Shown: in pieces, positions 5,572 to 49,749 of the stretch
How the letters are laid out: every line of letters begins with the position of its first letter
Numbering within the stretch: the stretch's first letter is position 1
From: Bacillota bacterium
GTDB lineage: Bacteria > Bacillota > UBA5301
Length of the DNA: 51,343 bases
NCBI GenBank assembly: GCA_017656135.1
Contig: JACDOJ010000009.1
Coordinates: 1-51,343, forward strand
Direction of reading: 5' to 3'
Made by a program: the position numbers and the translations under genes
Notes under the pieces: generated by a model
What the model was told of the DNA's origin: nothing
Seen by the model: the letters and a program-made list of their open reading frames with translations, nothing else
Databases searched by the model: none

Positions 5572-6624
5572 GTGAAAAGCCCCTTGGTCATGATCTCATT
5601 TCTCATATTTGGCCTCATCACCGTTTTAGGGCTGGGAGCTGCGGCGGCCCAAACCCAAGAGGTGGACTTGCCCACCTACCTGCAGCTGGTTTCTGAAAAC
5701 AACCTTGGCCTGCAGGCGGCCAAGCTTGAACTGGTCCAGGCCGAGCTGGCCTTCAAGAAAGCCACGGCTGCCAATCTCTTCACCGGCTCCAAGCAGGCTG
5801 CCTTGAAGGCGGCTTCCGATTTCGCAGCCGCCCAGGCCACCTACGAGCAAACCAGAGCCCAGATCATGCGGGATGCTGTGGCCAGCTATTTTCAGGTCAT
5901 TCTGGCCCAGCGGGATCTGGAAATCCGGCAAAACCGCTTGAAGCTCGCCGAGGAGAGACGGGCTATTACCGAACGGAAAATAGCTGAGGGTCTAGCCAGT
6001 GAGCTGGATCTGCTCCAAGCCACAGCAGAGGTGGAACGGGCTAAACTGGACTACCAGCGGGCCGACCAGGCTTACCAGGAAAAGCTGCTTGACTTCAACA
6101 GTCGGGCCGGTTCAGGCGCCGACTTAAAGTATGTCCCCGGTGTGTTGCCGGTCTACCCCATCGTGAAATACGATCCGGAAACTGCAGTCGGCAAGGCCCT
6201 AGCCGCATCCGACCAGTTGAAACGGTTATCCGAACTCGCCCGTTTAGCCGAGATGGAGCTAGCTAAGGCCGAAGCGGAAAATGCTGCCCCCCTCACTCTG
6301 GAGCAGGCCAAGAACGATCTGGCCTTAGCCAAGATACAGGTTGAGCAGCAGAGGCAAGCGCTTCGGGCAAGTGTCCTCAAAGACCTCCACACCCTGAGGA
6401 GCCTGGAAAAAGAAATCGCCCTCAGCCAGCTAAACGTGGAGCTGGCCCAGAGTAAGTACAAAACCGCTGAAAAGCAGTATAAAGCCGGCCTCCTCACCGA
6501 CCGGGAGTTGGATGAATCCGTCACTGGCCTCTGGGAAGCTCGTAAACAAGAGCTCCAGGCCAAGCAGAATTATGCTATTCAGCTGTTGAGTTTCAAAGGG
6601 CTCATCGGGGAGGAGCTGGAGTAG
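5572..6624 (+). CDS. TolC-like protein, short form apparently lacking beta-barrel strands
   Basis: 350 residues against the usual 430-480 for outer-membrane efflux proteins. A signal peptide (~1-24, ending AAAQT) leads into two long helical hairpins rich in Ala, Glu, Lys and Gln, with the family motif ASELDLLQATAEVERAKLDY near 143-162 and a second repeat with ELDESVTGLWEARKQELQAKQ. Where TolC has two beta-strand segments between helices, only short loops remain (around AANLFTGSKQAALKA and AENAAPLTLEQA). It may therefore form or extend a periplasmic helical tube without its own barrel (inference). GTG 5572 is supported by SD TTGGAGGTAG. It is the first gene of the efflux operon, and its stop abuts the next ATG. 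Confidence 0.8.
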   Translation: MKSPLVMISFLIFGLITVLGLGAAAAQTQEVDLPTYLQLVSENNLGLQAAKLELVQAELAFKKATAANLFTGSKQAALKAASDFAAAQATYEQTRAQIMRDAVASYFQVILAQRDLEIRQNRLKLAEERRAITERKIAEGLASELDLLQATAEVERAKLDYQRADQAYQEKLLDFNSRAGSGADLKYVPGVLPVYPIVKYDPETAVGKALAASDQLKRLSELARLAEMELAKAEAENAAPLTLEQAKNDLALAKIQVEQQRQALRASVLKDLHTLRSLEKEIALSQLNVELAQSKYKTAEKQYKAGLLTDRELDESVTGLWEARKQELQAKQNYAIQLLSFKGLIGEELE

Positions 6625-8028
6625 ATGCGGCTCAAGATTCTACTGATCCTCTTTGCTCTGGTCCTTATCTTTTCTGGAACCGCTACCGCCTGGCAGCAGA
6701 GCGTCCTCTCCCTGGAAGAGGCTTTGCAGGCAGTCTTAGAGCAAAAGATCGAAGTCAAAGAAGCGGAAAACACCCTCTTAGATGCTAAGTCAGACTTCGC
6801 GGCCTTTGAGGAGGAGCAGGGTTTACAGTGGGAGCTATCCCTGCCTGCTGCTACTTTTGATGCGGACGGTCTCCAACTCTCTGAGACCTGGGCCCTTACC
6901 GGCAAAGCAGGCAGCACCACCGAATACACAATTAACCTGGGGAAACGTGCCGCAGGCATTCCATCCACATTAAAGGAAGAATTATCCTTTAGTGTTTCCC
7001 GTAGGCTCTGGCCCGACCCTGAGCCGGCCCTGGACCAGCGTGAGGAATCTCTTGTCATGGGCGTCCAGTTTGCCGAGAAGAGTTTGGCGGATACCCAAAA
7101 CCAGGTCTTGATCAGTGCCTATGACCAGTACCGCAACCTCCAGCTTGGCCAGATTAAGTTAAAGCTCCTGGAGGAAAAAGCGGCGCTGGCCCAGAGCACT
7201 TACCAGAAAGCCAAGCGCCTCTTGGAGATCGACGAGACGACCCCGGCTGAGGTTAAAGAGGCGGAAGCCGCCTGGCTGAGGCAGGAGGCCACTTTGGTCA
7301 AGGAACGCGCTGCCTGGCAGAAGGAGAAGGTGGTTTTTCTCCAGAGTCTAGGTAGAGCAGCTAACATAGGCTTGGATGCCTTAAACCTGACTGAAGTCAT
7401 CGAGCAAGCCGAAGCCTGCCTCGCAGAGCCGGATCAGCCTGCAGTCTCTCTCGAGACTGTCCTCGCCGAAAGCAGGGAGATCCAAACCCTTGCAGGCCAG
7501 GTTCGGCTCAAAGAGAAGGCTCTGGAAATAGCCGAAGGCGATTCAGCTTGGGCCGTGGACCTTTCCGTTGGTGTCACCACCGATATCCAGACTCAGGAGA
7601 CCGATTGGTCTGCCGGCCTTTCTGCCACTTTGGACCTCTCCGGCCAAAAAGCCCGAGAGCGTCAGGTCGAGAAGGCCCACCGAGAGCTGGAGCTGGCCAA
7701 GCAGAAATTGGCAGAGGCGAGAGTCCGGGTGGAGCAAGAGTTTTCCCAGGCCCGGGCCGATTTGACCTATCAAAAAGCCCTGCTTGAGGCCGCCTACTTT
7801 GAGTGGCAGGCGGCTGAAGGCAACCTGCAAGTGGCCGCTAAGCAGCTGCGAGAAGGATTCATTACCGACGACCAGTACTCCGAGACCAAAATTGCCGCGA
7901 AAACCGCTCAACTGCAGCTGGCTCAGGCCTATTTCGCCTACCGGGTTCAGCATCTGAAACTGCTCTCTCTGGCCGGAGAGAAACCACTGCTTGAGATCGC
8001 CAAAGGAGAGACAAGCCATGCGGACTAA
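6625..8028 (+). CDS. TolC-like outer membrane efflux protein
   Basis: 467 residues, full family length. A signal peptide (residues 1-22, ...GTATA) is followed by helical hairpins. Unlike its upstream neighbour it keeps strand-like segments in both repeats: about residues 70-130, with alternating hydrophobic stretches such as LSETWALTG and ELSFSVSRRLW, and about 309-345 (VDLSVGVTTDIQ, WSAGLSATLDLSG). It should form the outer-membrane exit duct of the tripartite pump. The ATG directly follows the TAG of the first TolC-like gene, with SD GGGGAGGAG inside that gene's end. It overlaps the adaptor gene by 11 bp. Confidence 0.85.
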   Translation: MRLKILLILFALVLIFSGTATAWQQSVLSLEEALQAVLEQKIEVKEAENTLLDAKSDFAAFEEEQGLQWELSLPAATFDADGLQLSETWALTGKAGSTTEYTINLGKRAAGIPSTLKEELSFSVSRRLWPDPEPALDQREESLVMGVQFAEKSLADTQNQVLISAYDQYRNLQLGQIKLKLLEEKAALAQSTYQKAKRLLEIDETTPAEVKEAEAAWLRQEATLVKERAAWQKEKVVFLQSLGRAANIGLDALNLTEVIEQAEACLAEPDQPAVSLETVLAESREIQTLAGQVRLKEKALEIAEGDSAWAVDLSVGVTTDIQTQETDWSAGLSATLDLSGQKARERQVEKAHRELELAKQKLAEARVRVEQEFSQARADLTYQKALLEAAYFEWQAAEGNLQVAAKQLREGFITDDQYSETKIAAKTAQLQLAQAYFAYRVQHLKLLSLAGEKPLLEIAKGETSHAD

Positions 8029-36214: not shown

Positions 36215-39200
36215 GTGAGCAACTTGCAGGATGCCGAACATCTCTTCGAGCACACCATGGCTGAACATCTTGCAGAGCTAGCCCGCTACTGTGAAGTTGA
36301 TATTGTCATCGGTGTCCCATTCTATAACGAAGAAAAAGAAATCGGGCCCGCCATTGAAGCTCTACAATCGGGCCTTGAAAAATACTGTCCTGAATGCCGC
36401 GCTTTAATCGTCTGCGTCGGCTCCGCAGCAGGCCACAGAGCCCTGGAAAAGCTCGCCGAATCCAAAGCAGTGTCCGGCAAGCCCGAGGTCTATACCTTCC
36501 TCTTAGACCATGACGAGCTTCTGGGCAAAGGCTGGGGCGTCAAGGCTCTGCTTAAAGTGGCGGCCGCACTCCATGCCGATCTCGCCCTTTTCGAGGCCGA
36601 TTTCCTGGCTTCTGTCGGTGAGGTGGACAGCTACCAGTGGCTCCGCCTCCTCTTGGACCCCATCAGAATCGACGGCTATGACCTCTCCCTGGGGTGTTTC
36701 GAACGCCACCCTTTCACTGACGGGCTTGCTCTTCACCTGGTCAGCCCGATTATTGCTTCCACCTACGGTTGGCACATCACAGACCCCCTGGGGGATGAGA
36801 TGGCCCTCTCTAATGATCTTGTGAACAGGTTAATCAGCAAGAGTGTAAACTGGTTTGAAGATGCCTACCAGTATGGGGTCGGCATCTGGATTCTGACCAC
36901 GGCTTTGGCCCAGGAGGCCAGGATTTGCGAATCCAGCCTTGGAGCCAAGGCGCCTACGCGCTATAATGGCAAGCGAGAGCTGATGGGGCACCAGATCATC
37001 AGAACCCTTTTCCACCAGGTGAAAGAGCACTTTCCCAAGTGGAGCAAAACCGGCACGGTCTTGAGGTTTCCGGATGCCATTGGAGTTGCCAAGTGTGCAT
37101 CGGTGATCGCTGATAAACCGGATTTTGCCGCGGCTCTGCGCAAGTTCCAAAAAGGGTTCAATGCCTCTACTGCCAACTTACTGAAACGCATCATTCCCTC
37201 TGAGACTTTTGCCAAGTTAAACTTCCTCGCCGAGGCCCCGCGGGAACACTTCCATTTTAATGATTCCCTCTGGGCCGAAGTGGTCTACGACCTGCTTTTG
37301 GGTTCGGCCTTTCACAGTGAGTTGGATGAGGATGATTTGATCAATGCCGCCTTAAGCTTACTCCATGGCCGGAGGGCGCATACTGCCAAGCACCTTGCTG
37401 AAATCGAGCAGCGCCTGGGTACAATATCGGCCGACGAAACCAACCTCCTTTCCTTGGTTATCAGCCAGGAAAGCTCCAGGCAAATCCGGCTCTTTCACCA
37501 AAAGAGAGAAGAGCTCATCAAAGCCTGGCAGGAGCAGGAAGAAAAGATCCAGCCCTTCCTGCCTCAGGTGGCCTTTTGGGAGTTTATTCCCGGGGTGGCC
37601 ATGACCCTACCTCAAGAAGTTAGCTCTTCTAAAGGGAAGACCATCAGCCTCATCCCGATATACGAAGCCCTGCTTAGAGAGTACCGCCAGCGGTTTGCCT
37701 CCTTTGTGGAAGAGAGATTCGGTCTTCCTGTGACCGCTCCTTCCAGCAAGCTGGTGGAGGCGATCACCGGGTTCATGCGCTCTCTGGAGGAGGGGGTAAA
37801 AGAGCACTTTTTAACTGCGAACTTCACTCTTTACGAGGGGACTAAAGCCAACGCAAAAATACTTTTTGATTTCTTCGATCCGGGAGAGATTTATGCCCTC
37901 AAAGATGAGGCCGCTTGGCGCTTCCTGTACGAGAATCCCCCGGCTCACCTCTTGACTAAATACAACTCAAGTTCTGTGGCGGAGCTTCGGGAAAAGATGC
38001 CGCCCCACCACATACTGGCCCTTTCCTTCTGCACTGAGCACCGGGAGTACCAAATGCGGCTCTGGGAGTGGCTGCGCAAGAATGTAAGGCCGGAGGATTT
38101 CGAGAACCGCCCATTAGAGCCCTTGGTCGTCCCCAACACTCTATTCTATGGTCCTAGCGAGATGAGAGAAACCACCAAGCTCTGCCGGTTAGCTGGGACC
38201 TTAGTTCTGACTAACCTCACTAAACACGCCGGGGGCGAATACCGTTCCCTCCGCTACCTCACAGCTGTGGGCAAAAGCATCTTCGAAGCCCTGGCCTTCA
38301 GTGAGATCTGGCGGGGGTTTGCCAAGGAGGGGAGCAAGCAGTTTGCCCGCAAAGTCGCAAATTCCCTGGAAGGCCACTGGGGTAACGCACTTTTCTCGGC
38401 TCATAACATCTTTGAAAGTGGTATTCACAGAAAATTTGCCTCTCAGCTTCGCGAGAGGGCTCTGGCCCTTAAAGCCGCTTCTCAAGACCCAGAGTTCCAA
38501 CGTTTCTGTGCCGACCTGGCCTTGGCGGCGGAAGTCTATCCCTTGGCCATCACCTTGGCAGACGGCCAGTTTATCCCTCTGTCCATCTGGACCTGGGCCA
38601 GCTTCAGCTATAAAGGGGGCAAGGGCGTTCCCGGGCCTCTCTCTCTCCACGTGGAGCGGGACTGGTTCTCCCGGGAGATCTTAGAGCGGACCTATGCCGC
38701 CCTGGAGGAGAACTGGACCATTGACGAACTCATTATAGACCTCATGGGCAGGGGCAGTGAGTCTGCCGACCTAGCTGAATTCATCTTACCGGTCCAGCAG
38801 GACTCCAAAGAGCTTTTCGTGGAAACCTGTGTCCAGCCGGTGTACCCAGAGGCCGGGCAGTTGAAGCGTTTTCAGGGTAATCCCATATTAAGCCCGGTCA
38901 AAGAGCACGACTGGGAATCCACCTATGTGCTTAATAGCGCCGCCATCCGGTTGGGCGGCAAGATTTACCTGTTGTACCGAGCCTTTGGCGACCAAAAGGT
39001 TTCCAGCATTGGGCTGGCGGTAACCAACGACGGTTTTCACATCTCTGAACGCCTGCCGGAGCCGATCTTCGTCCCCGAGACCCAGGAGGAATCTGCGGGA
39101 GTGGAAGACCCGAGGATCGTTCGGATTGGCGACCGGCTCTATATGACTTACACTGCCTATGATGGGGTGGTTCCCCAGATCGCTTTGGCTTCTATCTCCG

Positions 39201-39823
39201 TCGATGATTTTCTGGCCCGCCGCTGGGAGAAGTGGGAACGCTTGGGCCTGGCGTTTCCCAACTTCCCTAATAAAGATGCGGTCATCTTCCCGGAGAAGAT
39301 CAACGGCCGCTATGCTATGTACCACCGGGTGGCTCCCAGTATCTGGCTCTCGTACGCAGACTCCATCCAGTGCCCGTGGCCCAAGACCGGCCATAAGATC
39401 ATCATGGGGCCCCGCTACGGCATGCTCTGGGATGCAATCAAGATCGGCGCCGGCGCTCAGCCCTTAAAAACCCGCCACGGCTGGCTCCTCATCTACCACG
39501 GAGTGGACTACGCGATTCACTACAGCCTGGGGGTTATGCTGGTTTCACTGGATGATCCCAGTAACCTCATTTACCGCTCTCCAAACCCTATTCTGACCCC
39601 GGAAGAGGAGTACGAGAAAGGGGTCAAAGGACAGGTCTGGGTCCCCAATGTCGTTTTCACCTGCGGTGCCGTTCCCGCCAGAGATACAGACCTCTTAGAA
39701 GATGATGATGAGGTGCTGGTCTACTACGGAGCGGCAGACACCTTTATCGGTGTCGCCAAGGCCACGGTGGCCGAGTTAATTCCTGAACCAATCAGAAAAC
39801 AAGAAAAAAGCTGGAAGAAATGA
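36215..39823 (+). CDS. Giant fusion: glycosyltransferase-like domain, unknown middle, GH130 phosphorylase domain
   Basis: 1202 residues, no signal peptide or membrane helix. Residues ~29-290 look like a GT-A transferase: DIVIGVPFYNEEKEIGPAIEAL, an acidic LFEADFLAS in the DxD region (~126), and DPLGDEMALS / NWFEDAYQYGVGIWI as acceptor-side blocks, similar in style to GT2/GT81 mannosyl- or glucosylglycerate synthases. Residues ~300-880 are mostly helical and unrecognised. Residues ~884-1190 are GH130: FQGNPILSP, GVEDPRI with the general-acid Asp (~972), NKDAVIFPEKINGRYAMYHR, YHGVD and GQVWVPNVVF. GH130 enzymes split or phosphorolyse beta-mannosides. The gene precedes a GDP-sugar operon, so a mannose-type substrate is likely. 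GTG 36215 with SD TAGGGGGAA. The fold assignment of the N-terminal domain is less secure than that of GH130. Confidence 0.8.
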   Translation: MSNLQDAEHLFEHTMAEHLAELARYCEVDIVIGVPFYNEEKEIGPAIEALQSGLEKYCPECRALIVCVGSAAGHRALEKLAESKAVSGKPEVYTFLLDHDELLGKGWGVKALLKVAAALHADLALFEADFLASVGEVDSYQWLRLLLDPIRIDGYDLSLGCFERHPFTDGLALHLVSPIIASTYGWHITDPLGDEMALSNDLVNRLISKSVNWFEDAYQYGVGIWILTTALAQEARICESSLGAKAPTRYNGKRELMGHQIIRTLFHQVKEHFPKWSKTGTVLRFPDAIGVAKCASVIADKPDFAAALRKFQKGFNASTANLLKRIIPSETFAKLNFLAEAPREHFHFNDSLWAEVVYDLLLGSAFHSELDEDDLINAALSLLHGRRAHTAKHLAEIEQRLGTISADETNLLSLVISQESSRQIRLFHQKREELIKAWQEQEEKIQPFLPQVAFWEFIPGVAMTLPQEVSSSKGKTISLIPIYEALLREYRQRFASFVEERFGLPVTAPSSKLVEAITGFMRSLEEGVKEHFLTANFTLYEGTKANAKILFDFFDPGEIYALKDEAAWRFLYENPPAHLLTKYNSSSVAELREKMPPHHILALSFCTEHREYQMRLWEWLRKNVRPEDFENRPLEPLVVPNTLFYGPSEMRETTKLCRLAGTLVLTNLTKHAGGEYRSLRYLTAVGKSIFEALAFSEIWRGFAKEGSKQFARKVANSLEGHWGNALFSAHNIFESGIHRKFASQLRERALALKAASQDPEFQRFCADLALAAEVYPLAITLADGQFIPLSIWTWASFSYKGGKGVPGPLSLHVERDWFSREILERTYAALEENWTIDELIIDLMGRGSESADLAEFILPVQQDSKELFVETCVQPVYPEAGQLKRFQGNPILSPVKEHDWESTYVLNSAAIRLGGKIYLLYRAFGDQKVSSIGLAVTNDGFHISERLPEPIFVPETQEESAGVEDPRIVRIGDRLYMTYTAYDGVVPQIALASISVDDFLARRWEKWERLGLAFPNFPNKDAVIFPEKINGRYAMYHRVAPSIWLSYADSIQCPWPKTGHKIIMGPRYGMLWDAIKIGAGAQPLKTRHGWLLIYHGVDYAIHYSLGVMLVSLDDPSNLIYRSPNPILTPEEEYEKGVKGQVWVPNVVFTCGAVPARDTDLLEDDDEVLVYYGAADTFIGVAKATVAELIPEPIRKQEKSWKK

Positions 39824-39866
39824 TTTTAGATCCCCTCTAATTGGCCTTATAACCACTTCCTATTTT

Positions 39867-39904
39867 TTGAATAATTGGCAAACAAAGTGGTATAATGATA
39901 TAAT
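39867..39904 (+). promoter_or_regulatory. Promoter of the sugar-nucleotide operon
   Basis: TTGAAT (39867-39872), an 18-base spacer and TATAAT (39891-39896) preceded by TG (extended -10, TGG at 39888-39890). A second TATAAT lies at 39899-39904. The operon 39954-44860 can thus be transcribed independently of the fusion gene upstream. No clear terminator is visible in 39824-39866. Confidence 0.65.
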
Positions 39905-39953
39905 AAAGGTAATTTTTGGAAATTAGATATATCTAAAGGAGGGATCGTTCGAG

Positions 39954-40988
39954 ATGCGTGTTGGGGCGCTCTTGTTGGCGGGGGGGCTCGGTACGCGCCT
40001 TTTTCCCCTCACCAAGCAGCTGCCTAAACCGATGATTCCGTTACTTGGGAAGCCTCTTTTGGAACACATCATCACCAATCTAGTCGGCCAAGGCGTAGAG
40101 GATATTGTCATCGCCGTCGGCTACCAAGGGGAAGTTATCGAAAGATATTTTGGCGATGGTTCTCGCTTTAACTGCCGGATTCGGTATAGCCGAGAAGATA
40201 AACCCCTTGGTACAGGCGGAGCCATCAGAAAAGGCGGGCTCCTCTTTGATCACACCTTTCTGGTCTTAAACGCAGACATTCTCCAAGACTTCGCTTTGAA
40301 CAAGTTAGTGGCCTTTCACCAAGAGACTGGTGCCTCAACTACCATCGGGTTGATGATGGTCAAAGATCCCCGGAGTTTTGGCCTGGTGGAGCTGGGACCT
40401 TCCGGCAGGGTGCAGCGCTTTGTGGAGAAACCTAAAACCCTGGCCGAAGTCACCAGTCCGTATGTAAATGCAGGCATTTATGTTATGGAACCGGAAGTTT
40501 TAGCATATATTCCTGATAGTAAACAAGTTTCCGTTGAACGGGAGACGTTTCCGGCCCTTTTGGCTGCAGGAGAGCCTGTATATGGTTTCCCCATGTCCGG
40601 TGTCTGGCATGACCTAGGTACCCGGGAAAGATACCTTAAGGTGCATCAAGACCTGCTGCAAACAACAAAACCGGCGGTGCAGTCTGCTCCCGACGCTGTG
40701 GTGCACAAAAAAGCAAAGCTTATACCCCCGGTCTGGATCGGCCCAGGATGCCAGGTTCAGAATGGGGCTGAGGTAGGTCCCTTTGCTTTTTTAGGTGCCG
40801 GTTGCCAGGTTAAGTCCGGGGCTAAGGTTAAAGAGTCCGTACTGTGGGATCAAGTGATCGTGGGGCCCGGGGCATGTGTTATCCAGTCGGTCTTAGGAAA
40901 TACTGTCAGTGTACCGCCGGCAGGGAGGCTTATTGGGCAGTTGGTTTGTCCAGAGAGCCTGGAAGAAGCGATAAGGAGGTCGTTGTAA
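39954..40988 (+). CDS. Sugar-1-phosphate nucleotidyltransferase (mannose-1-phosphate guanylyltransferase-like)
   Basis: 344 residues. It begins with ALLLAGGLGTRLFPLTKQLPKPMIPLLGKPLLEHII, the nucleotide-binding signature, followed by ADILQDF for the metal-binding Asp, FVEKPK, and NAGIYVME. From about residue 245 it has a left-handed beta-helix tail of hexapeptide repeats (PPVWIGPGCQVQNGAEVGPFAFLGAGCQV). This two-domain layout is that of GMPP-type GDP-mannose and some NDP-glucose pyrophosphorylases. The base specificity cannot be read with certainty; the phosphomannomutase-like partner favours GDP-mannose. SD AAAGGAGGG before ATG 39954. Confidence 0.85.
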   Translation: MRVGALLLAGGLGTRLFPLTKQLPKPMIPLLGKPLLEHIITNLVGQGVEDIVIAVGYQGEVIERYFGDGSRFNCRIRYSREDKPLGTGGAIRKGGLLFDHTFLVLNADILQDFALNKLVAFHQETGASTTIGLMMVKDPRSFGLVELGPSGRVQRFVEKPKTLAEVTSPYVNAGIYVMEPEVLAYIPDSKQVSVERETFPALLAAGEPVYGFPMSGVWHDLGTRERYLKVHQDLLQTTKPAVQSAPDAVVHKKAKLIPPVWIGPGCQVQNGAEVGPFAFLGAGCQVKSGAKVKESVLWDQVIVGPGACVIQSVLGNTVSVPPAGRLIGQLVCPESLEEAIRRSL

Positions 40989-43285
40989 TGAAGATCGCAA
41001 TTGTTTCATCTTGGCCCCCCAGACAGTGCGGAATAGCTTCCTTTGCTTCGGACATGCGCTTGGGGTTGAAACAGAACGGGTATTCGAACCTGCCAGTTGT
41101 CGCCGTCTCTCGGGAACCAGGGGAGTACCACTACGGTGATGAGGTGGTCTACGAGATCATCCAGGATGAAGCCGAAACCTACCGGGAAGCAGCCCAGGTT
41201 CTAAACGATCTGGCGGTGGATGCTGTTATTTTGCAGCACGAGTACGGACTTTTCGGCGGCCCAGATGGTGACATGATCTTAGGGCTGCTCTCCAGCCTCA
41301 AGGTGCCGGTGGTCTCCATCCTGCACACGGTCCTTTCCAAACCCTCGGCCGGGCAGTATAAAGTGCTGGGGAGGCTGGCTGAGTACTCCAGCAAGGTGGT
41401 GGTCATCGCCGAACGGGCCAAGAACATCTTAGGACAAGTCTACGGCATACCCCCGCAGAAAACAGTTCATATTCCGCACGGGGTTCCGGAACCGCCGTTG
41501 CCGAAAGCGGTTCAAAAGGTGAAGGAGAGTTTCGGTGGCGGGGGAAAAACCCTGTTGCTGACGTTTGGGCTCCTGAGTCCGGGGAAGGGCCTGGAGCTGG
41601 CGATTAAGGCGGTAGGTGAGATCCGCAGCTCCTGCCCTGATTTACTCTACCTCATCGTTGGGGCCACCCACCCGAATGAGAGGCGCCTGCACGGCGAGGC
41701 CTACCGGGAGGGCCTGCAGAGAATGATAAGGATGATGGGCCTGGAGGAGAATATCCGCCTCATCGACAGGTTCTTGGATGAAGACGAGCTCATGGCCCAC
41801 ATCGCCGCCTGTGACATCTACGTGATTCCCTACCCCAGCCGGGAACAGATCTCCAGCGGCACGCTCTCTTTCGCTCTGGGATTGGGGAAACCCATCATCT
41901 CCACCCCCTTTATTTACGCTGAGGAAATGCTGGGTGATGGCTCAGGGCTCTTGGTTCCCTTCGGAGATGCCGGGCAGATGGGTAAAGCTATGGCCACTTT
42001 GATCAAAGACCGTGGCTTTCGGGCGGAACTGGCTGCCAAGGCCCTTGTCAAGGGTCGGAAGATGCAGTGGAAAGTGGTGGCCCAAAAGTACGCCAAACTG
42101 GCCAAGACGGTGGGCAAGATTCATCCGGTCCACAAAGGGAGAATACCCCCTGCGGTCGGAGAACGCCATTCCGGCAAGAAGGACTTGGTCAAACTGCCCG
42201 CGGTCTCCTACGACCACCTCATACGGATGACAGACGACACCGGTCTGCTCCAGCACGCCTGCGGCTCGATCCCCAACCGGCAGCTGGGTTACACCTCAGA
42301 TGATAATGCCAGGGGGCTTCTGGCCATGGCGCTGGCTCCCAAGGAACAGGAGACTCAGGCTCTGAAATTGGCTGAAAACTACCTGGCTTTCCTGTATTAT
42401 GCCTGGGAGGGGGATGGCTGGTTCCACAACTGCTTCAGCTACGACCGCAGACCTTTGGAAGAGAAACCGTCTGATGACTGTCAGGGCAGGGTGCTATGGG
42501 CTCTGGCAGCTACCGTCAGAGTCTGGAGTGAGCTGCCCCTGGCCAAAGTGGCCTTCAGGATGTTTAGGGAATCCCTGCCGACCTGGACCAGAATGACTTC
42601 GATCCGGGGCTATGCTGGCGTAGTTATGGCCCTGGCGACGCTGCTGCGCTCCACACCCAGCCTGGGGACGGAAGGGTGTTCACAGGACTTATCAGAGGGT
42701 TTGGTTGCTGAATACACGGAAACCCTGGTCAAAGTGGCCGATAAGCTGGCCGCAAAGTATAAGGCGACCGCCAGGAAGAACTGGCTCTGGTACGAGAACA
42801 TCCTAACCTATGACTGTGGATTGATGCCGGCCGCCATGTTTCAGGCCTACGGTGTGGTACCGAAGAAAGAGTACCTGAAGATTGCCGCTGAGAGCCTGCA
42901 CTTTTTGGCCGGCAAGACTGTGGAGGAGGGAATCTTCCGCCCGGTGGGGAATAGAGGATGGTATCCGCGGAACGGCAAAAAGGCTGAGTACGACCAGCAG
43001 CCTTTAGAGGCCTGGGCAATGGCTCTGGCAGCGATTTCCGCCTATGATGTGACCCGGAACCGCCGCTGGCTGGACCTGGCCGATATCGCTGAACGCTGGT
43101 TCTTGGGCCAAAACGACCTGGGGATTTCTCTTTATGATCCCCGGACAGGGGGCTGTGCCGACGGTCTGCATTCGGAAGGGATCAATGAGAACCAGGGGGC
43201 CGAGTCGACTCTGGCCTACATTTTGACCAGATCGCTGCAGGAGGCAGTCCGCGAGAGTACGCTATCGGAGGTGCAGGAAGCTTGA
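40988..43285 (+). CDS. GT4 glycosyltransferase fused to an (alpha/alpha)-barrel glycosidase-like domain
   Basis: 765 residues, cytoplasmic. Residues 1-400 are a GT-B transferase of family GT4: IVSSWPPRQCGIASFASDM, HGVPEPP, LLTFGLLSPGKGLELAIKA, and IPYPSREQISSGTLSFALGLGKPIISTPF for the nucleotide-sugar site. Residues ~420-755 are an all-helical toroid-like domain with paired motifs (YTSDDNARGLLAMAL, FHNCFSYDRRPL, DDCQGRVLWALA, YDQQPLEAWAMALA, NENQGAESTLAYI), as in (alpha/alpha)6 glycosidases and phosphorylases. ATG 40988 overlaps the previous stop, with AAGGAGG at 40974-40980. GT4 plus this type of domain recurs near GH130 genes in other bacteria, to my knowledge without biochemical proof. The likely sugar is mannose. 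Confidence 0.83.
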   Translation: MKIAIVSSWPPRQCGIASFASDMRLGLKQNGYSNLPVVAVSREPGEYHYGDEVVYEIIQDEAETYREAAQVLNDLAVDAVILQHEYGLFGGPDGDMILGLLSSLKVPVVSILHTVLSKPSAGQYKVLGRLAEYSSKVVVIAERAKNILGQVYGIPPQKTVHIPHGVPEPPLPKAVQKVKESFGGGGKTLLLTFGLLSPGKGLELAIKAVGEIRSSCPDLLYLIVGATHPNERRLHGEAYREGLQRMIRMMGLEENIRLIDRFLDEDELMAHIAACDIYVIPYPSREQISSGTLSFALGLGKPIISTPFIYAEEMLGDGSGLLVPFGDAGQMGKAMATLIKDRGFRAELAAKALVKGRKMQWKVVAQKYAKLAKTVGKIHPVHKGRIPPAVGERHSGKKDLVKLPAVSYDHLIRMTDDTGLLQHACGSIPNRQLGYTSDDNARGLLAMALAPKEQETQALKLAENYLAFLYYAWEGDGWFHNCFSYDRRPLEEKPSDDCQGRVLWALAATVRVWSELPLAKVAFRMFRESLPTWTRMTSIRGYAGVVMALATLLRSTPSLGTEGCSQDLSEGLVAEYTETLVKVADKLAAKYKATARKNWLWYENILTYDCGLMPAAMFQAYGVVPKKEYLKIAAESLHFLAGKTVEEGIFRPVGNRGWYPRNGKKAEYDQQPLEAWAMALAAISAYDVTRNRRWLDLADIAERWFLGQNDLGISLYDPRTGGCADGLHSEGINENQGAESTLAYILTRSLQEAVRESTLSEVQEA

Positions 43286-44685
43286 GCAAGCCGGAGTTAA
43301 AACTGCATGTTTTTAAAGAGTATGACATCAGGGGTGAGGCCTACAAGGACTTGACCCCTGATTTTGCGTGCCTTTTGGGCTACGCCTTTGGGAAGATGGT
43401 AAAGGAGGAGAAGGGTTTCAATAAGGCCATCATAGGCCGGGACAACCGGGAGTCTTCCCCGGAGCTGGCCGAGGGGCTTGTCACGGGCTTACGCCGGGCC
43501 GGGGTAGAGGTAGTCGATATCGGCCAGGTGGTGACGCCGGTCTTCTACTGGTCCAGGATCTACTATGATATCAATCCCGGGATCATGGTAACGGCCAGCC
43601 ACAACCCGCCCAAGGACAACGGTTTCAAGATCGCCTTAGGTTTTGCCACTATCTATGGGGAAGATGTGCAGAACCTGCGCCGGCGGATGGAGGCCCTAAT
43701 CGACGAATACGAGAAGGAACCCAGTGAGCTGCCGCCGGTGCGCAAAGAGCGGCCCAATCCAGAGTACATCAAGATGGTTGCGGAGAAAGTGAAGCTGGAT
43801 AGGCCTCTGAAGGTGGCAGTGGACTGCGGCAACGGTACGGCTTCGGACATCGCCGTAGATCTGTATGAGGCCTTGGGCTGTGAGGTTATACCTCTATACT
43901 GTGAGTCAAACCCCTCCTTCCCCAACCACCATCCTGACCCGGTGAGGCCCGAGAACCTGCAGGACCTGATCAAGGTCGTTAAGGAGAACCAGGCTGATGT
44001 GGGTCTCGCCTTTGACGGTGACGGAGACCGGTTGGGTGTGGTTGATGATACCGGAAACATCCTGTGGGGAGACCAGTTGATGGTCTTGTACTGGCGGGAG
44101 ATCCTGCCGAAACACCCGGGAGCAGAGGCGATTGTTGAGGTGAAGTGCTCCAATGCCTTGGTGGATGAGGTGAAGAAGCTGGGGGGAAGACCTTTCTTCT
44201 ACCGGACCGGCCACTCTTACATTAAGGCCAAGCTCAAAGAGATTGGGGCTCCTTTCACTGGGGAGATGAGCGGCCATCTCTTCTTTGCCGATGAGTACTA
44301 TGGTTTTGATGATGCGCTTTACGCAGGGGCGAGGCTATTGCGGATACTGGCCAGGGAGGATAAACCTTTATCTCGACTTCTCGATGATGTGCCTAAGTAC
44401 TACAGTACGCCTGAGGTCAGGGTCCACTGCCGGGAGGAGTCCAAGACCAAGGTGGTTAAGGCTGTACTGGACCATTTCCGGGAGAAGTATGAGGTTATCG
44501 ATGTGGACGGCGCCAGGGTGAACTTTCCCAATGGCGGATGGGGCCTGGTGAGGGCCTCCAACACCCAGCCGGTATTGGTCTTAAGGTGTGAGGCCAAGAC
44601 CAAGGAGGATTTGGGTAAAATCACTGGGGAGATAGAAGAGGTCCTGGAGAAGTTCCCTGAGGTGGGGGAAATCAACTGGAAATAG
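43282..44685 (+). CDS. Phosphomannomutase / phosphoglucomutase
   Basis: 467 residues, usual for the AlgC/ManB branch of alpha-D-phosphohexomutases. The active-site phosphoserine is in TASHNPPKDNGFK, the Mg2+ site in FDGDGDRLGVV, the sugar-recognition loop in GEMSGHLFF and the phosphate site in RASNTQPVLVLR. It interconverts mannose-6-P and mannose-1-P (or the glucose forms), feeding the nucleotidyltransferase of the same operon. TTG 43282 overlaps the preceding stop by 4 bp (TTGA), after SD GGAGGTGCAGGAAG. Confidence 0.92.
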   Translation: MSKPELKLHVFKEYDIRGEAYKDLTPDFACLLGYAFGKMVKEEKGFNKAIIGRDNRESSPELAEGLVTGLRRAGVEVVDIGQVVTPVFYWSRIYYDINPGIMVTASHNPPKDNGFKIALGFATIYGEDVQNLRRRMEALIDEYEKEPSELPPVRKERPNPEYIKMVAEKVKLDRPLKVAVDCGNGTASDIAVDLYEALGCEVIPLYCESNPSFPNHHPDPVRPENLQDLIKVVKENQADVGLAFDGDGDRLGVVDDTGNILWGDQLMVLYWREILPKHPGAEAIVEVKCSNALVDEVKKLGGRPFFYRTGHSYIKAKLKEIGAPFTGEMSGHLFFADEYYGFDDALYAGARLLRILAREDKPLSRLLDDVPKYYSTPEVRVHCREESKTKVVKAVLDHFREKYEVIDVDGARVNFPNGGWGLVRASNTQPVLVLRCEAKTKEDLGKITGEIEEVLEKFPEVGEINWK

Positions 44686-44949: not shown

Positions 44950-46074
44950 ATGCAGATATTAGCCCAGGTAAAACTAATAATTGGACTTTGCATTACTCTC
45001 CTTGTTTTGGTGACCATTCCGGTTGCAGCTGAAGAACTATGTAATGTAGAGGTTCTGGTGGACCAAAACGGGCTTAGCCTGCAAGAGCTGAGCTTCCATT
45101 TAAGCGCCGGTGCTTGGCAGCTGACCGCAGGGAAACAGCAAGTTCACTGGGGCCCTGGCAAGCTAGGGAATCTCTTTCTTTCGGAAGAAAGCCCTTTCTG
45201 TGGGTTGGTTGCCAGTAGATCTTGGGAGATTGGTAAGTATTCAATAAGGAGCACCCAGCTTTTCGCTCCTATTGATTCTACGAAACACAAGGTTCTGTTT
45301 GCCCATCGACTGGAGAGCCCATTGACCGACAATCTGACTTTAGGAGTCAATGAAAGTGCCATTGCTAGTGGGGATTTCACTCCATGGTTGTATAATCCAA
45401 TCCCATTTTGGCCCTATTATCTCACTCAGCACTTGGTGAAGAAGGACGATCCTCAACAAGACTGGCTTATCAATGTTAATCTAGGTATTGATACTGTCTA
45501 CAAATGGAGTGCTGATAAAGAAGTTTATGGTGAGCTATTCATCGATGATGCTCAGAGTGACCTACAAGGCAGGACCAGAGTGCCGGATATGTTCGGCATC
45601 ATGTTGGGCTTTCACGATAAGGAGCTTGAGTTTTGGTCAAATACTGCGGCCACTGTAGAGTACGTAGCAATCACCAACTGGGTCTACTCCCACAAAAATT
45701 TGGACAACAACTATGTTTGGGAAGATGAAACTCCCATTGGTCACTGGTTAGGTCCTGACGCTGATGCTATAACTCTTCTCTTGACACACGGGCTGAATCC
45801 AAAAACTGATATATCCTTTAAACTTCAGGCTGAACGGCACGGTGAAGGGTCCATAGACGAGCAGTGGAAACCTGAGTATGGACACGAAAACTGGTTTTTG
45901 TCAGGTGTTGTTGAAAAACGCTATACAGCTGGAATTAGCTTGACTGAAACCTTAACCAAATACTTGCGGGTGAGCTCCAAGCTGGATTGGACCAGAAGAT
46001 ATAACGCAGGTAACGAACTCGGGAAGACGACTGAAGGTTTTGACCTGGACATAGAGGCGAGTCTCTCATTTTAG
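44950..46074 (+). CDS. Wzi-like capsule assembly outer-membrane protein
   Basis: 374 residues. Signal peptide ~1-27 (...IPVAAEE). It contains QLTAGKQQVHWGPGKLGNLFLSE near residues 57-79, the signature of Wzi/Cap-assembly proteins (a W-G-P-G-x-x-x-x-L-x-L block after an RY/K-Q strand), then many strand-length segments and a final DLDIEASLSF ending in Phe. Wzi is an 18-strand barrel that helps attach capsule to the surface in E. coli. The polysaccharide export genes that follow fit this. The ATG has no clear SD, so the start is less certain. Overlaps the convergent LolA-like gene by 9 bp. Confidence 0.8.
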   Translation: MQILAQVKLIIGLCITLLVLVTIPVAAEELCNVEVLVDQNGLSLQELSFHLSAGAWQLTAGKQQVHWGPGKLGNLFLSEESPFCGLVASRSWEIGKYSIRSTQLFAPIDSTKHKVLFAHRLESPLTDNLTLGVNESAIASGDFTPWLYNPIPFWPYYLTQHLVKKDDPQQDWLINVNLGIDTVYKWSADKEVYGELFIDDAQSDLQGRTRVPDMFGIMLGFHDKELEFWSNTAATVEYVAITNWVYSHKNLDNNYVWEDETPIGHWLGPDADAITLLLTHGLNPKTDISFKLQAERHGEGSIDEQWKPEYGHENWFLSGVVEKRYTAGISLTETLTKYLRVSSKLDWTRRYNAGNELGKTTEGFDLDIEASLSF

Positions 46075-46803
46075 GAAATAAGAGTCCGTCAGGCCGATGT
46101 TCACTTGATGTTTGGAAAGCTCCATCTGGAAGTGAAGGTCATCTGTCAAGGCGACTTTGCTAAGCAATTTACCGAACCCGGAAGGGGGTAGGAGGTTAGC
46201 TAAGAGCAATCCACCTTCACCCTTGAGCTCAGTAGGGATCCAAGCATTAGGGGCAGCTTGGATGTATTTGGCCTGCATGACCGTTCGCCCCATTCCCGGG
46301 ACTGACATGTCTGATTTAATGATTAACCAGCTTTTACTGGAAATCCAAAAACGCATATTAAGGTTTTCCTCGCTTTCTTCCTTAGAGGAAACATCTATTA
46401 TGTAAACCTTTTGTCCTTCAAGTTCAGTGGTTCCAACCAATTTCAAGGTATATCTGGAAGAGGCGAACTGCAAGGGGTCGGGAAAGATAAACCGGTATTG
46501 AGGGAGAAATAATATTTCGCCGATTACAGCTTTAACCTGGCTGGGGCGCTTACTATAGATATCTCCTGAGAGGGGTAATAAAGGAATGAAACCAATTCGT
46601 GCAGTCAATTTTACTTTAGCGTGAAAGTCTTTTAAGCCACTTTGAGCGTTCAGCATATTCTGGATTATCTCGGTTGCTGAGTAGTCTAGGTTTTGTTCAG
46701 TTAATGAGTGAGCAAATACCCTTTGATTTAAAACGAGACTTAAAAATAGTATCAGCATCCAGCTCAAGTGGACTTTTTGCTTAGAGCGGGGCAGCTTAAA
46801 CAA
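46066..46803 (-). CDS. LolA-like periplasmic carrier protein
   Basis: 245 residues. A signal peptide (WMLILFLSLVLNQRVFAHS, ~15-33) is followed by the LolA/LppX-like half-barrel: EIIQNMLNAQSGLKDFHAKV, VKLTARIGFIPLLPLSGDIY, RPSQVKAVIGEILFLPQ, then YTLKLVGTTELEGQKVYIID, NMRFWISSKSWLIIKSDM. This pattern is common in DUF-type outer membrane lipoprotein carriers outside Proteobacteria. It sits between a Wzi-like gene and the capsule export genes, so a role in moving a lipid-linked factor for capsule assembly is conceivable. TTG 46803 has GAGG 9 bases upstream; ATG 46758 is a weaker alternative that shortens the signal peptide. Confidence 0.72.
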   Translation of the reverse strand: MFKLPRSKQKVHLSWMLILFLSLVLNQRVFAHSLTEQNLDYSATEIIQNMLNAQSGLKDFHAKVKLTARIGFIPLLPLSGDIYSKRPSQVKAVIGEILFLPQYRFIFPDPLQFASSRYTLKLVGTTELEGQKVYIIDVSSKEESEENLNMRFWISSKSWLIIKSDMSVPGMGRTVMQAKYIQAAPNAWIPTELKGEGGLLLANLLPPSGFGKLLSKVALTDDLHFQMELSKHQVNIGLTDSYFLK

Positions 46804-46852
46804 GGACGTAAACCTCGATTCTTTGGATTTCTTATATCATTCAGTAAAAGCA

Positions 46853-46887
46853 ATGAATTCCCTTGGGCCACGAAGGGTTTAATTCAT
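46853..46887 (+). other. Inverted repeat in the leader of the capsule export operon
   Basis: ATGAATTCCCTT (46853-46864) can pair with AAGGG-TTT-AATTCAT (46873-46887) with a three-base bulge. It lies 55 bases before the SLBB gene start in the 138-base space between divergent genes. No T-run follows. It could be an operator or a leader RNA structure. Confidence 0.4.
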
Positions 46888-46941
46888 GGAAAAACGAACA
46901 ATATGTAGGAAAATGTAGAATGCCAGGTGGAGGGACATTAG

Positions 46942-48327
46942 TTGAAACGGCTTGCTGTTTTTTTTCTGTTTTCAGCTCTACTGTTTTCTTTGGCAACAAT
47001 CCCATTAGCTGCCCAAGAGAACAACCAGGATTACCGGTTAGGGCCGGGAGATGTCCTTTAAATTTCTGTCTGGGGTCACGAAGATTTGGCCCAGATGGTT
47101 GAAGTCCGACCGGATGGCAAGATTAGTTTTCCTCTCATAGATGATCTCATGGTGGACAACCTGACCATACCACAGGTCAAAGAAGCGTTAACAAAGCAGC
47201 TGGCCCAGTATGTCCGCGACCCTAAGGTAACAGTAGCGGTTAAAAAGTTTCGCACCATAACTGTACAGGTATCGGGAGAGGTCAGGAACCCTGGCCTCTA
47301 CCTGCTACAGCCAGACAGCAGTATCTCAGATGCTATTGCGGCAGCTGGTGGGCTCACGCCTGACGCTGATGGGACAAGGATCAAGTTTGTTCCTAAATCG
47401 GGAGGGGTTTCTCTCGTAAACCTGGACAGTGTTGCCGATACGCTAGGTGAGAAGAGACTACAAAACGGCGACCAGATTATTGTCCCTGAGGTACCAAAGG
47501 TCATGGTGATGGGAGAAGTTCGGTCTCCCGGAATGTATCCTTTAAAACCGGGAAGTAGAGTTTCTGATGCTATTGCCACAGCAGGTGGGCTCACTGGGAA
47601 TGGGGATGTCACAAGTGTCAGAGTGGTTTTCTCTCAAGGTGGCACTGGATCTTTCAATCTGCGAGACTTCTTCCTGAATGGAGATCAAACAAATAACCCA
47701 ATTATCCGCAATGGGGATCAAATCATTGTCCCAGCATTACCCACAGTGACTGTTTTAGGAGAGGTGAATAGGCCAGGTTTAGTGCAGGTAGAGGCTGGAA
47801 GCACTATCAGTGATATTCTCGCTCAGTTGGGGGGAACTACTCCTGATGCAAATCTTCAGCGGGTTGAGCTGACCATCTACCAAACTGCGGAGGCAGCTCC
47901 CATCACCCAAGTCTTTGATCTCACCAAAGCCGATGGCAACAGGCCGATTAGTGTTCCCAGGTCAGCCAGTGTGGTTATTACTGTGCCAAAGATCCAGTGG
48001 CAAGTTACAGTTTTGGGAGAAGTTCAGCGGCCGGGCACCTACCCGGTGAGCGAAAGTTCCAGGCTGCTAGAGGTCATCGGTAAAGCCGGCGGGCCAACCG
48101 ACCGGGCTCGCTTAGACGGTGTGCGGGTTTACAGGGGTGGTGATTTTGCCGATCCAGAGTCTGTTGTCGTGGGCCGGGAACATCTGCTTTTCGAGGGCGA
48201 TTCCAAAGAGAACCCGCAGGTGAAACCTGGTGATGTTATCTTTGTTCCAGAGACAAAGAGAATCGACTGGGATAAGGTCATTAAGTTACTGACAGGGCTC
48301 AAACTTACCAAAGATTTGTTGGAGTAA
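46942..48327 (+). pseudogene. Wza-like polysaccharide export protein (SLBB repeats) interrupted by one in-frame TAA
   Basis: TTG 46942 with SD AGGTGGAGGGA starts LKRLAVFFLFSALLFSLA, a signal peptide, then QDYRLGPGDVL, the Poly_export start. Codon 40 is TAA (47059-47061), after which the same frame continues perfectly with ISVWGHEDLAQMVEVRPDGKISFPLIDDL. Four SLBB repeats follow (starting VSGEVRNPGLY, VMGEVRSPGMY, VLGEVNRPGLV, VLGEVQRPGTY). The family usually has Lys or Glu at the stop position (GDVLKISVWG), so one AAA or GAA to TAA change explains it. No good restart exists: TTG 47086 and ATG 47095 lack a signal peptide and SD. An intact protein would form the periplasmic or outer-membrane polysaccharide channel. 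Readthrough or a sequencing error would also fit. Confidence 0.85.
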
Positions 48328-48345
48328 GGCGGCAGGAGGACCCAA

Positions 48346-49749
48346 ATGGAACAGGAAATTGAACTCAGAGAGCTGTTTGAAATACTCGCCAAGCGGAAGA
48401 CGTTAATAATTTTGCTCGTTATTGGAGCGGTGGTTGCGAGCTTTATTACTTCGCAATTCATGACCCCTATTTATGAAACCAGTACAACCATTATTGTGGA
48501 GAAACCCTCCTCACTGGAGAACCCTTTTCAGCAAATGCTGAGCATGGACCAGCCTCAGGTGGCCGATTTCGCGGAAATCCTGAGGAGTAGAAGTTTGCTC
48601 TACACAGTTGCCAAGAAACTGGATCTGGTGGAAGACGAAAATTCCCAGAAGTTAAAAGAGCTGGCAGAAGCGGTTTCTGTCCAATCGGTTGGGCAGACCA
48701 ACTTGATTCGAATTACCGTGGAGTCGCCGAAGCCGGAGGTGGCCAGGGATTTAGCCAATGGTCTGGCTCAGGAGTTCATAACACAAAATGAGCTGTTGAA
48801 CAGAACAGAGGCTCGCGGGGCCAAAGAGTTCATTGAGGAGCAGCTGAAGATAGTTAGCGAGGACTTGGCACAAGCTGAGGAAGCTCTGCGGAATTTCCAG
48901 ATCGAAAACCAGATTTTTGCACCTGAGCAAGAGGTAGAGGCCACCTTAAACCAGCTCACTAAACTCGAGACCATGCAGGCTGAGACCTTGGTTTCTTTAA
49001 GTGAGTTGGAGAGCAGGCAGAGGCAGGTTAATGCACAGTTGGAAACGGTGGAGGAGAAAGTAATATCCTCTACGACTATTGCCAGAAATCCGCTCATCCA
49101 GGCACTGAAGACACAACTGAACAATTTGGAGATCCAATTGGCAGGTGCCTTGGAGAAATACACTGACGAGCACCCCACAGTTGTCTCTCTGCGGGCAGAG
49201 ATAGAGGAAATTAAAGCCCGCATGAAACAAGAGGCAGCAAAGGTAGTAACTGCTGAAACAGAGACGCTAAACCCGATGTATCAGGCGCTTTATCAGAAGG
49301 CAAGTGAACTGCAGGTCGAAGAACTGGCACTGCAGGTGCGTAATGAAACCCTAGCTAAACTAATTGCCGAGCAAGAGCAAGAGTTGGTTTCCCTCCCTGA
49401 TAAGCAGCTGCAGCTAACCAGACTGATGCGTAACGCCAAGGTCACCGAAGAAATTTATGTTATGCTCAAGAAAAAGTATGAGGAAGTCAAAATCACCGAG
49501 GCTATGAAGACTGCCAATGTCCGGGTGGTCGATGAAGCATTGTCTCCAACCGCCCCCATCCGTCCTAAAGTAAAGCTAAATGTCTTAATCGCAGCCTTTT
49601 TGGCACTTTTCGTGGGGGTCGGTCTAGCCTTTGCTATAGAGTTCCTTGACACTACGATAAAAACCCCGGAAGAGGTGGAGGAGCTTCTGGGACTCCCAGT
49701 ATTAGGCCAAATTCCTTCCTATTTGCCAGAACACTTGCCTGATAAATAG
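48346..49749 (+). CDS. Chain-length determinant / capsule co-polymerase (Wzz, GNVR domain)
   Basis: 467 residues. First membrane helix LIILLVIGAVVASFITSQF (~24-42), then the Wzz domain start MTPIYETSTTIIVEKPSS, and a long periplasmic coiled-coil (~150-400). The final membrane helix lies in PTAPIRPKVKLNVLIAAFLALFVGVGLAFAIEF, with the proline-rich pre-helix motif typical of polysaccharide co-polymerases. The tail KTPEEVEELLGLPVLGQIP fits a cytoplasmic contact with the BY-kinase encoded next. It sets polymer length in Wzy-type assembly. ATG 48346 with SD GCAGGAGG. Confidence 0.9.
   Translation: MEQEIELRELFEILAKRKTLIILLVIGAVVASFITSQFMTPIYETSTTIIVEKPSSLENPFQQMLSMDQPQVADFAEILRSRSLLYTVAKKLDLVEDENSQKLKELAEAVSVQSVGQTNLIRITVESPKPEVARDLANGLAQEFITQNELLNRTEARGAKEFIEEQLKIVSEDLAQAEEALRNFQIENQIFAPEQEVEATLNQLTKLETMQAETLVSLSELESRQRQVNAQLETVEEKVISSTTIARNPLIQALKTQLNNLEIQLAGALEKYTDEHPTVVSLRAEIEEIKARMKQEAAKVVTAETETLNPMYQALYQKASELQVEELALQVRNETLAKLIAEQEQELVSLPDKQLQLTRLMRNAKVTEEIYVMLKKKYEEVKITEAMKTANVRVVDEALSPTAPIRPKVKLNVLIAAFLALFVGVGLAFAIEFLDTTIKTPEEVEELLGLPVLGQIPSYLPEHLPDK

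Follow-up and report, generated by a model that had tools for sequence, protein, structure and literature searches.

A GT4-like/barrel fusion within a putative mannose module

The window analyzed here is a stretch of 51,343 nucleotides from a Bacillota bacterium (contig JACDOJ010000009.1 of assembly GCA_017656135.1). A single clean open reading frame of 765 codons (40988–43285) encodes a 765-residue protein in which a glycosyltransferase family 4 (GT4)-like domain is fused to an (α/α)6-barrel domain. The fusion gene, its domains and motifs, and its module partners all lie on the + strand. Its ATG start at 40988 is preceded by a Shine-Dalgarno sequence, AAGGAGGT, at 40973–40980 and overlaps the upstream gene's stop as TAATG; its own stop occupies 43283–43285. 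Residues 1–375 (40988–42112) form the GT-B domain, which exceeds the Pfam cut-offs for GT4 models (PF13692, 55.3 bits; PF00534, 53 bits), also matches PF13439, and has PimA and Alr3699 as best solved relatives. A disordered linker follows (residues 383–400, 42134–42187), with a predicted local distance difference test score (pLDDT) below 50 in the full-length model. The predicted barrel (residues 404–765, 42197–43282) has no family of its own in Pfam or NCBIfam, no model of either reaching its cut-off there.

The window carries a whole mannose module. Its order from 36215 to 44685 is GT-like/GH130 fusion, guanylyltransferase-like gene, GT4-barrel fusion and mutase-like gene, the last three overlapping by one and by four bases. 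The first gene (36215–39823) encodes 1202 residues comprising a GT-like N-terminal region, a middle region without known family, and a glycoside hydrolase family 130 (GH130) domain (residues 887–1189, 38873–39781). A GT-GH130 fusion at this place had been noted in an earlier sequence-only reading of the window, and PF04041 confirms it at 189 bits (cut-off 26); the NCBIfam model NF052550 scored under its own cut-off. The best solved relatives of this GH130 domain are β-1,2-mannobiose and 1,2-β-oligomannan phosphorylases (7fip, E 1.8e-63). The middle region, residues about 400–880, has no convincing counterpart among Pfam or NCBIfam families or solved structures, and recurs in the long GH130 proteins that neighbour barrel genes in the same-phylum loci read. 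The second gene (39954–40988) encodes a sugar-1-phosphate nucleotidyltransferase, mannose-1-phosphate guanylyltransferase-like (PF00483, 184.7 bits; NF052502, 266 bits against a cut-off of 440). The last (43282–44685), whose start overlaps the end of the fusion gene by four bases, is phosphoglucomutase/phosphomannomutase-like (PF02878–PF02880 and PF00408; NF046027 PgmG, 470.7 bits against a cut-off of 600).

Wzi-, SLBB/Poly_export- and Wzz-type genes for polysaccharide export and chain length lie downstream at 44950–49749; since they follow the module, what it makes in this bacterium may be a capsule or an exopolysaccharide. A TTGGCA-18-TATAAT site was seen at 39875–39904, ahead of the nucleotidyltransferase gene; the promoter scan as a whole did no better than shuffled sequence (5 found, 5.1 expected). 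Up to an E of 1, the Pfam matches of proteins P0001 and P0002 comprised GT4 and GH130 models plus weak matches. A defence role was rejected, PADLOC giving no match.

Fold of the C-terminal domain

A barrel model built from the window sequence and 60 relatives gave twelve helices with a pLDDT of 92.3 and a predicted template modelling score (pTM) of 0.91. The closest solved fold was 7tem (YPO2471), at Z 38.5 over 334 residues, followed by cellobiose 2-epimerases (Z about 31), GH9-type exo-β-glucosaminidases (3h7l and 6gdt, about 30.5) and GH76 α-mannanases (about 28). A profile of 25 barrel members also found 7tem from sequence alone (E 8e-25), so that profile similarity and shared fold both place the barrel in the YPO2471 superfamily. 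The model and its fold matches thus bear out the call of a helical toroid fused to a GT4 transferase, made in the sequence-only reading: as modelled, the C-terminal domain is a twelve-helix (α/α)6 barrel. It is also predicted to share the hallmark of (α/α)6-barrel carbohydrate-active enzymes, in which polar and acidic residues are conserved where the inner helices begin.

Grouping with non-catalytic helical repeats was not seen, the nearest solved folds of named activity being enzymes, and a HEAT/TPR-like repeat was rejected on the predicted fold and the conservation pattern. Several weaker matches were read as echoes of the fold: those of the window protein to GH76 and C5-epimerase Pfam models, which fell below cut-off; those of some relatives to LANC and LanM; and, provisionally, those of single members among 25 scanned barrels to C5-epimerase, GH88 or GH127 (1e-7 to 1e-11).

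Conserved residues of the barrel

Conservation was read from an alignment of 61 barrel domains, the 60 others being 35–42% identical to that of the window and drawn from 78 usable barrels, alongside eight relatives from an exported sister clade described below. The three motifs singled out beforehand as being of a kind that lines catalytic clefts lie where they had been placed, each at the start of an inner helix and each with residues invariant or nearly so, which speaks against a chance occurrence. DDNARG (residues 438–443, 42299–42316) opens inner helix 2; D438 and D439, a candidate catalytic pair, and R442 are invariant (61/61) and kept in seven of the eight exported relatives, the eighth having a gap there. 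DDCQGR (residues 496–501, 42473–42490) opens inner helix 4, with D497 as Asp in 60 of 61 and Glu in one, and R501 as Arg in 60 of 61 and in all eight exported relatives. NENQGAES (residues 733–740, 43184–43207) opens inner helix 12, where N735, G737 and the candidate catalytic acid E739 are invariant in both sets. Not every acid of these motifs held up: the first Asp of DDCQGR is usually Glu (Glu in 43, Asp in 13 of 61), and the Glu of 'NENQ' falls outside the conserved columns, the conserved acid of that motif being E739. D725 of a TGGC-x-D-G motif (43160–43162), another candidate active-site acid, is invariant in both sets. G726 and D416 are invariant among the 61, and D717 is kept in 60 of them and in all eight exported relatives.

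The inner-helix N-terminal ends form the catalytic cleft of the (α/α)6 fold. Among 58 columns conserved at ≥90%, 21 fall at the N-termini of the six inner (even-numbered) helices of the model and one at those of the outer (odd-numbered) helices, counted in spans of equal size picked after the motifs had been seen, so that the p-value of this contrast is descriptive. Conserved polar and acidic residues thus gather, along the sequence, at the inner-helix starts, which supports the sequence-only reading.

GH76 enzymes (PF03663) use a catalytic Asp-Asp pair. The barrel has an invariant Asp-Asp pair at inner helix 2, and profile comparison with GH76 by hhalign gave a probability of 85% for cytosolic and exported barrels together and 4% for exported barrels alone, figures that do not establish equivalence of the two pairs. 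The sets used in the hhalign comparisons with enzyme families were small (GH9, 12 sequences; AGE, 4; GH76, 3), which makes these comparisons weak evidence.

AGE enzymes (PF07221) require a catalytic His pair on their inner helices. H423 is the sole invariant His in the 61 barrels and H410 is common (53/61), and neither lies at an inner-helix start. We therefore rejected an AGE identity, the catalytic His pair being absent, and consider it very improbable that the barrel is a sugar epimerase or isomerase of the cellobiose 2-epimerase kind. That alternative draws on cellobiose 2-epimerases being the top-scoring solved family of known activity, and on the action of GH130 mannosylglucose phosphorylase together with cellobiose 2-epimerase in mannan catabolism. 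Set against these, besides the placement of the His residues, Rhizobium daejeonense carries a separate AGE-family gene beside its GT4-barrel/GH130 pair. AGE-superfamily epimerases (cellobiose 2-epimerase, 9l8i, 3wkf) share the (α/α)6 barrel at 10–14% identity.

Coupling of the barrel to GH130 and GT4

Distribution was surveyed first among 299 same-phylum genomes, with barrel and GH130 places compiled by hand. Six of 71 barrel genomes (G078, G141, G148, G150, G224 and G272) were dropped for having weak matches only; all six are of the exported type and have GH130. A cytosolic barrel remained in 65 genomes and GH130 was found in 107. GH130 was present in 64 of the 65 barrel genomes versus 43 of the 234 others, the lone exception, G019, being 78% complete; the Fisher p for this contrast takes no account of kinship among the genomes. 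For at least 43 of 68 barrel places a listed GH130 is no more than 10 kb away, and in 28 of those 43 the GH130 belongs to a frame of ≥1000 residues. Of 20 regions read around these and other matches, 14 encode a protein of ~1055–1208 residues matching all three parts of the 36215–39823 protein.

The second survey took loci of named genomes, the best 80 of 565 confirmed and hence biased to close relatives; many are cut by contig ends, and one barrel (L065) was missed, leaving 79. Of these, 65 have a GH130 no more than 5 kb from the barrel. The co-occurrence that the sequence-only reading had proposed surveying is thus borne out in both sets. Fusion of barrel and GT4 accounts for 63 of the 79 loci; another 12 have the barrel beside a GT4 gene, three (L076, L077 and L103) lack one, and one is cut by a contig end. 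Barrel-carrying contigs are titled Bacteroidetes, Firmicutes, Chloroflexi, Planctomycetes, Bathyarchaeota and Asgard, with alphaproteobacterial plasmids in addition. Among plasmids, 27 records match. GH130 is directly beside the GT4-barrel gene in all three regions read: it directly follows the fusion in Novosphingobium and Rhizobium, whereas the Ilyobacter fusion comes after two GH130 genes and a further GT4. Listed plasmid records that annotate the matched region label the fusion 'glycosyltransferase family 4 protein'. On two plasmids (L191 and L192) the pair lies near toxin-antitoxin genes, with transposases too on L191; these neighbours suggest that the pair spreads as cargo. One locus has a second GT4 (L043:9487–10836, N-terminus MRIAMLSPIAWRTPPRHYGPWE) fused to a mannose-6-phosphate isomerase-like cupin (PF01050), and the cluster of this cupin-fused GT4 occurs near the barrel gene in 31 of the 79 loci.

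On a tree of 105 barrels the 'fused' label needs at least five changes, three forced by well-supported branches, and the fusion of the window groups with split relatives, away from the main fused clade. The tree was made by a quick method, with L017 omitted, L181, L184 and L185 dropped because they were duplicates, L097 and L111 assigned manually to 'fused', L007 carrying the L036 sequence, and the L179 barrel not found. GT4 and barrel may well have become fused repeatedly, these counts being unable to separate gain from loss; such repeated origin would argue that GT4 and barrel work together.

The barrel could instead be a non-catalytic module that binds acceptors or gauges length for the GT4 half. 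That 75 of 79 loci have the barrel joined to GT4 or next to it would suit that role, as would helical add-on domains of glycosyltransferases acting in such ways, reportedly among them one of the Fap1 bifunctional protein (PMC5063993). The (near-)invariance of D, D, R, N, Q, D and E residues, many of them at inner-helix N-termini, points the other way, and so does their retention in the GT-free exported clade. We regard a purely binding role as unlikely.

An exported sister clade

One locus (L106) encodes, besides its own GT4-barrel gene, a second barrel protein (6293–7615) with a lipoprotein-like signal, located between transporter-like genes and GH130. A search with this exported barrel found strong relatives in 7 of the 299 same-phylum genomes, all seven with GH130; at least five of the seven share a contig with a listed GH130, at a distance of about 7.1 kb or less. 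Exported relatives have hydrophobic signal-like N-termini where the gene start is present, plus C-terminal extensions, which in some may be carbohydrate-binding modules. Their neighbours are solute-binding- or permease-like, as recognised by eye from sequence. Cytosolic and exported clades align by hhalign at 99.9% (E 2e-33). The operons around the L106 and L112–L118 exported paralogues resemble ATP-binding cassette (ABC) sugar importers with GH130. No GT4 match was found beside the barrel in the exported-clade operons L112–L118 and L187–L189. A signal-bearing barrel in an import-like operon with a phosphorylase and without an adjacent GT4 is what would be expected of a depolymerase, and it is mainly for this context that we prefer a glycosidase-type activity.

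GH9 enzymes (PF00759) have a DAGD base motif and a C-terminal catalytic Glu. The exported clade aligned with GH9 at a probability of 95.9 (E 5e-9), placing its WTDA under the WYDA of the DAGD motif. The best GH9 match among the 25 scanned barrels reached E 0.0049 only, and the window protein itself is unmatched by GH9. Both GH9 (3h7l, 6gdt) and GH76 (4v1r, 6u4z) share the barrel fold with the window protein, which differs in being unmatched by the one and below cut-off for the other; the catalytic residues of these families are not transferable from the alignments.

A variant GT4 half

The canonical GT4 catalytic motif is E-X7-E. We aligned 44 fused sequences, the window's and 43 taken from the 63 fused ones. 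Membership of GT4 is supported by the Pfam domain scores, and the E-X7-E motif is absent: in place of PimA's E-x-F-G-x(4)-E stands Q287-I-S-S-G-T-L293 (41846–41866), with Q287, S290, G291, T292 and L293 invariant in 44/44. The second Glu of PimA lies opposite F295, a position occupied by Tyr or Phe throughout (44/44), and PimA's first Glu is not conserved. K200, equivalent to PimA Lys200, is kept, while the residues near 195/196, which we take to be the position of PimA's Arg, are hydrophobic in the fused relatives. Split GT4 partners mostly share QxxSGTL, and none scoring >200 bits has E-x-[FYM]-G-x4-E. PimA, a GT4 α-mannosyltransferase, thus shares the GT-B GT4 domain (E 6e-10) and differs in having E-X7-E and the Arg where the window protein has QxxSGTL and hydrophobic residues.

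The subfamily may use an altered mechanism, and QxxSGTL is possibly diagnostic of a mechanistically odd GT4 subfamily. With E-X7-E lost, a standard α-mannosyltransferase label should not be assumed, nor should the 'make/break' pairing of transferase with hydrolase or phosphorylase that the sequence-only reading had seen in both fusions.

Proposed function

With moderate confidence, we propose a two-part enzyme acting in a mannose-polymer or mannoside pathway, its barrel an active glycosidase-type domain working on the same glycan as GH130. We infer the three reactions, the mannoside substrate and the roles of single residues as follows. The variant GT4 domain would transfer a mannosyl unit, probably from guanosine diphosphate mannose (GDP-mannose). 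The barrel would hydrolyse mannosidic bonds of the same glycan or rearrange them as a transglycosylase, moving or branching chains; its likeliest catalytic acids would be D438/D439 and E739, with D725 nearby. GH130 would recover mannose-1-phosphate from the β-mannoside part of the glycan, and the guanylyltransferase-like and mutase-like neighbours would link mannose-1-phosphate to GDP-mannose and mannose-6-phosphate. Our best single guess for the shared glycan is a β-1,2-mannan, because the window's GH130 is nearest to β-1,2-mannoside phosphorylases.

Several points weigh against this proposal. A retaining GT4 would make α-mannosides and GH130 attacks β-mannosides, a mismatch between product and substrate. 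Together with the loss of the canonical motif in 44/44 fused relatives, this weakens the earlier idea of two make/break fusions in one pathway; what stands of it is two fusions in one neighbourhood and the coupling to GH130. That coupling speaks for a shared pathway and specifies no reaction. To our knowledge, no barrel member has a measured activity. D497 is replaced by Ser in 8/8 exported relatives. The exported-clade/GH9 alignment stops before what we take to be the GH9 catalytic Glu region, and no residue is transferred by it. Cytosolic barrels alone aligned with GH9 at a probability of 1.5 and with GH76 at 35; with AGE they reached 77, locally only, over 89 columns.

That the barrel is a transglycosylase and not a hydrolase we consider doubtful. 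The comparison behind this alternative is Cgs, which has glycosyltransferase, cyclisation (CY) and phosphorylase domains, the CY domain being homologous to GH144 family endoglucanases and chain length being set by the phosphorylase, according to PMC10901819. Cgs (PMC10901819, PMC10834661 and PMC12102758) reportedly combines a GT, an (α/α)6 barrel and an inverting phosphorylase on one glycan, a trio that would here be split over the GT4-barrel and GH130 proteins; it differs in being one membrane protein with another GT family, another phosphorylase fold, and glucose in place of mannose. The kinship of the window's GH130 with β-1,2-mannoside phosphorylases also suits a transglycosylase. By contrast, the exported-clade operons without an adjacent GT4 match better fit a hydrolase, the GT here is a soluble GT4 and not a membrane GT84, and no sequence relation was found between the barrel and the Cgs cyclisation domain.

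The proposed mannoside-pathway enzyme has a close precedent in gene content. The GDP-mannose cluster of Thermoanaerobacter (Teth514_1785–1796) holds two GH130 genes, a mannose-1-phosphate guanylyltransferase, a GT4 and the 'hypothetical protein' Teth514_1785 (Chiku et al. 2014, PMC4264767). The accessible part of that paper gives Teth514_1785 no role, proposes salvage of imported 1,2-β-oligomannan, and could name no source of 1,2-β-oligomannan in Thermoanaerobacter. Thermoanaerobacter loci L048 and L058 run GH130, GH130, NTP, GT4 and unfused barrel, an order from which Teth514_1785 is probably the split version of the barrel. The cluster would then have the same gene set as the window module with barrel and GT4 unfused. 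The gene set is thus probably already known in unfused form; the barrel domain itself is unnamed and without a family. Beyond that 2014 description, no paper on the barrel or on this architecture with GH130 was found in the open-access literature, where related papers concerned mannogen, Thermoanaerobacter and Cgs.

The nearest structural relative, the uncharacterised YPO2471 of Yersinia pestis (7tem), shares the fold, superfamily and the DDxAR, DG and NxNxGAES motifs. It differs in being called exported, in having no GT domain in its chain, in its 18% identity over the structural alignment, and in not keeping the acid of SEDxxGR. No paper on YPO2471 was found in the open-access literature.

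Implications

A wider interpretation, possible though tentative, is that the GT4-barrel and GH130 proteins form a mannan cycle that is self-contained, horizontally mobile and pan-prokaryotic, the 'mannogen' equivalent of glycogen metabolism. The variant GT4, with a rebuilt catalytic site, would elongate the polymer and GH130 would phosphorolyse it to mannose-1-phosphate. The barrel would represent a new glycoside hydrolase/transglycosylase family that adds or removes branches or closes rings, with the exported sister clade supplying secreted depolymerases specific to this polymer.

The barrel occurs in split, fused and exported forms, which makes three easy expression targets. If catalytic, the barrel would found a glycoside-hydrolase-type family from a domain of roughly 350 residues that is now annotated away, and would explain much of the role of GH130 in organisms that are not known to feed on mannan from plants or yeast. 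The near-constant company of the GT4-barrel pair with GH130, a mannose-recycling enzyme, points to a widespread mannose-polymer pathway in bacteria and archaea.

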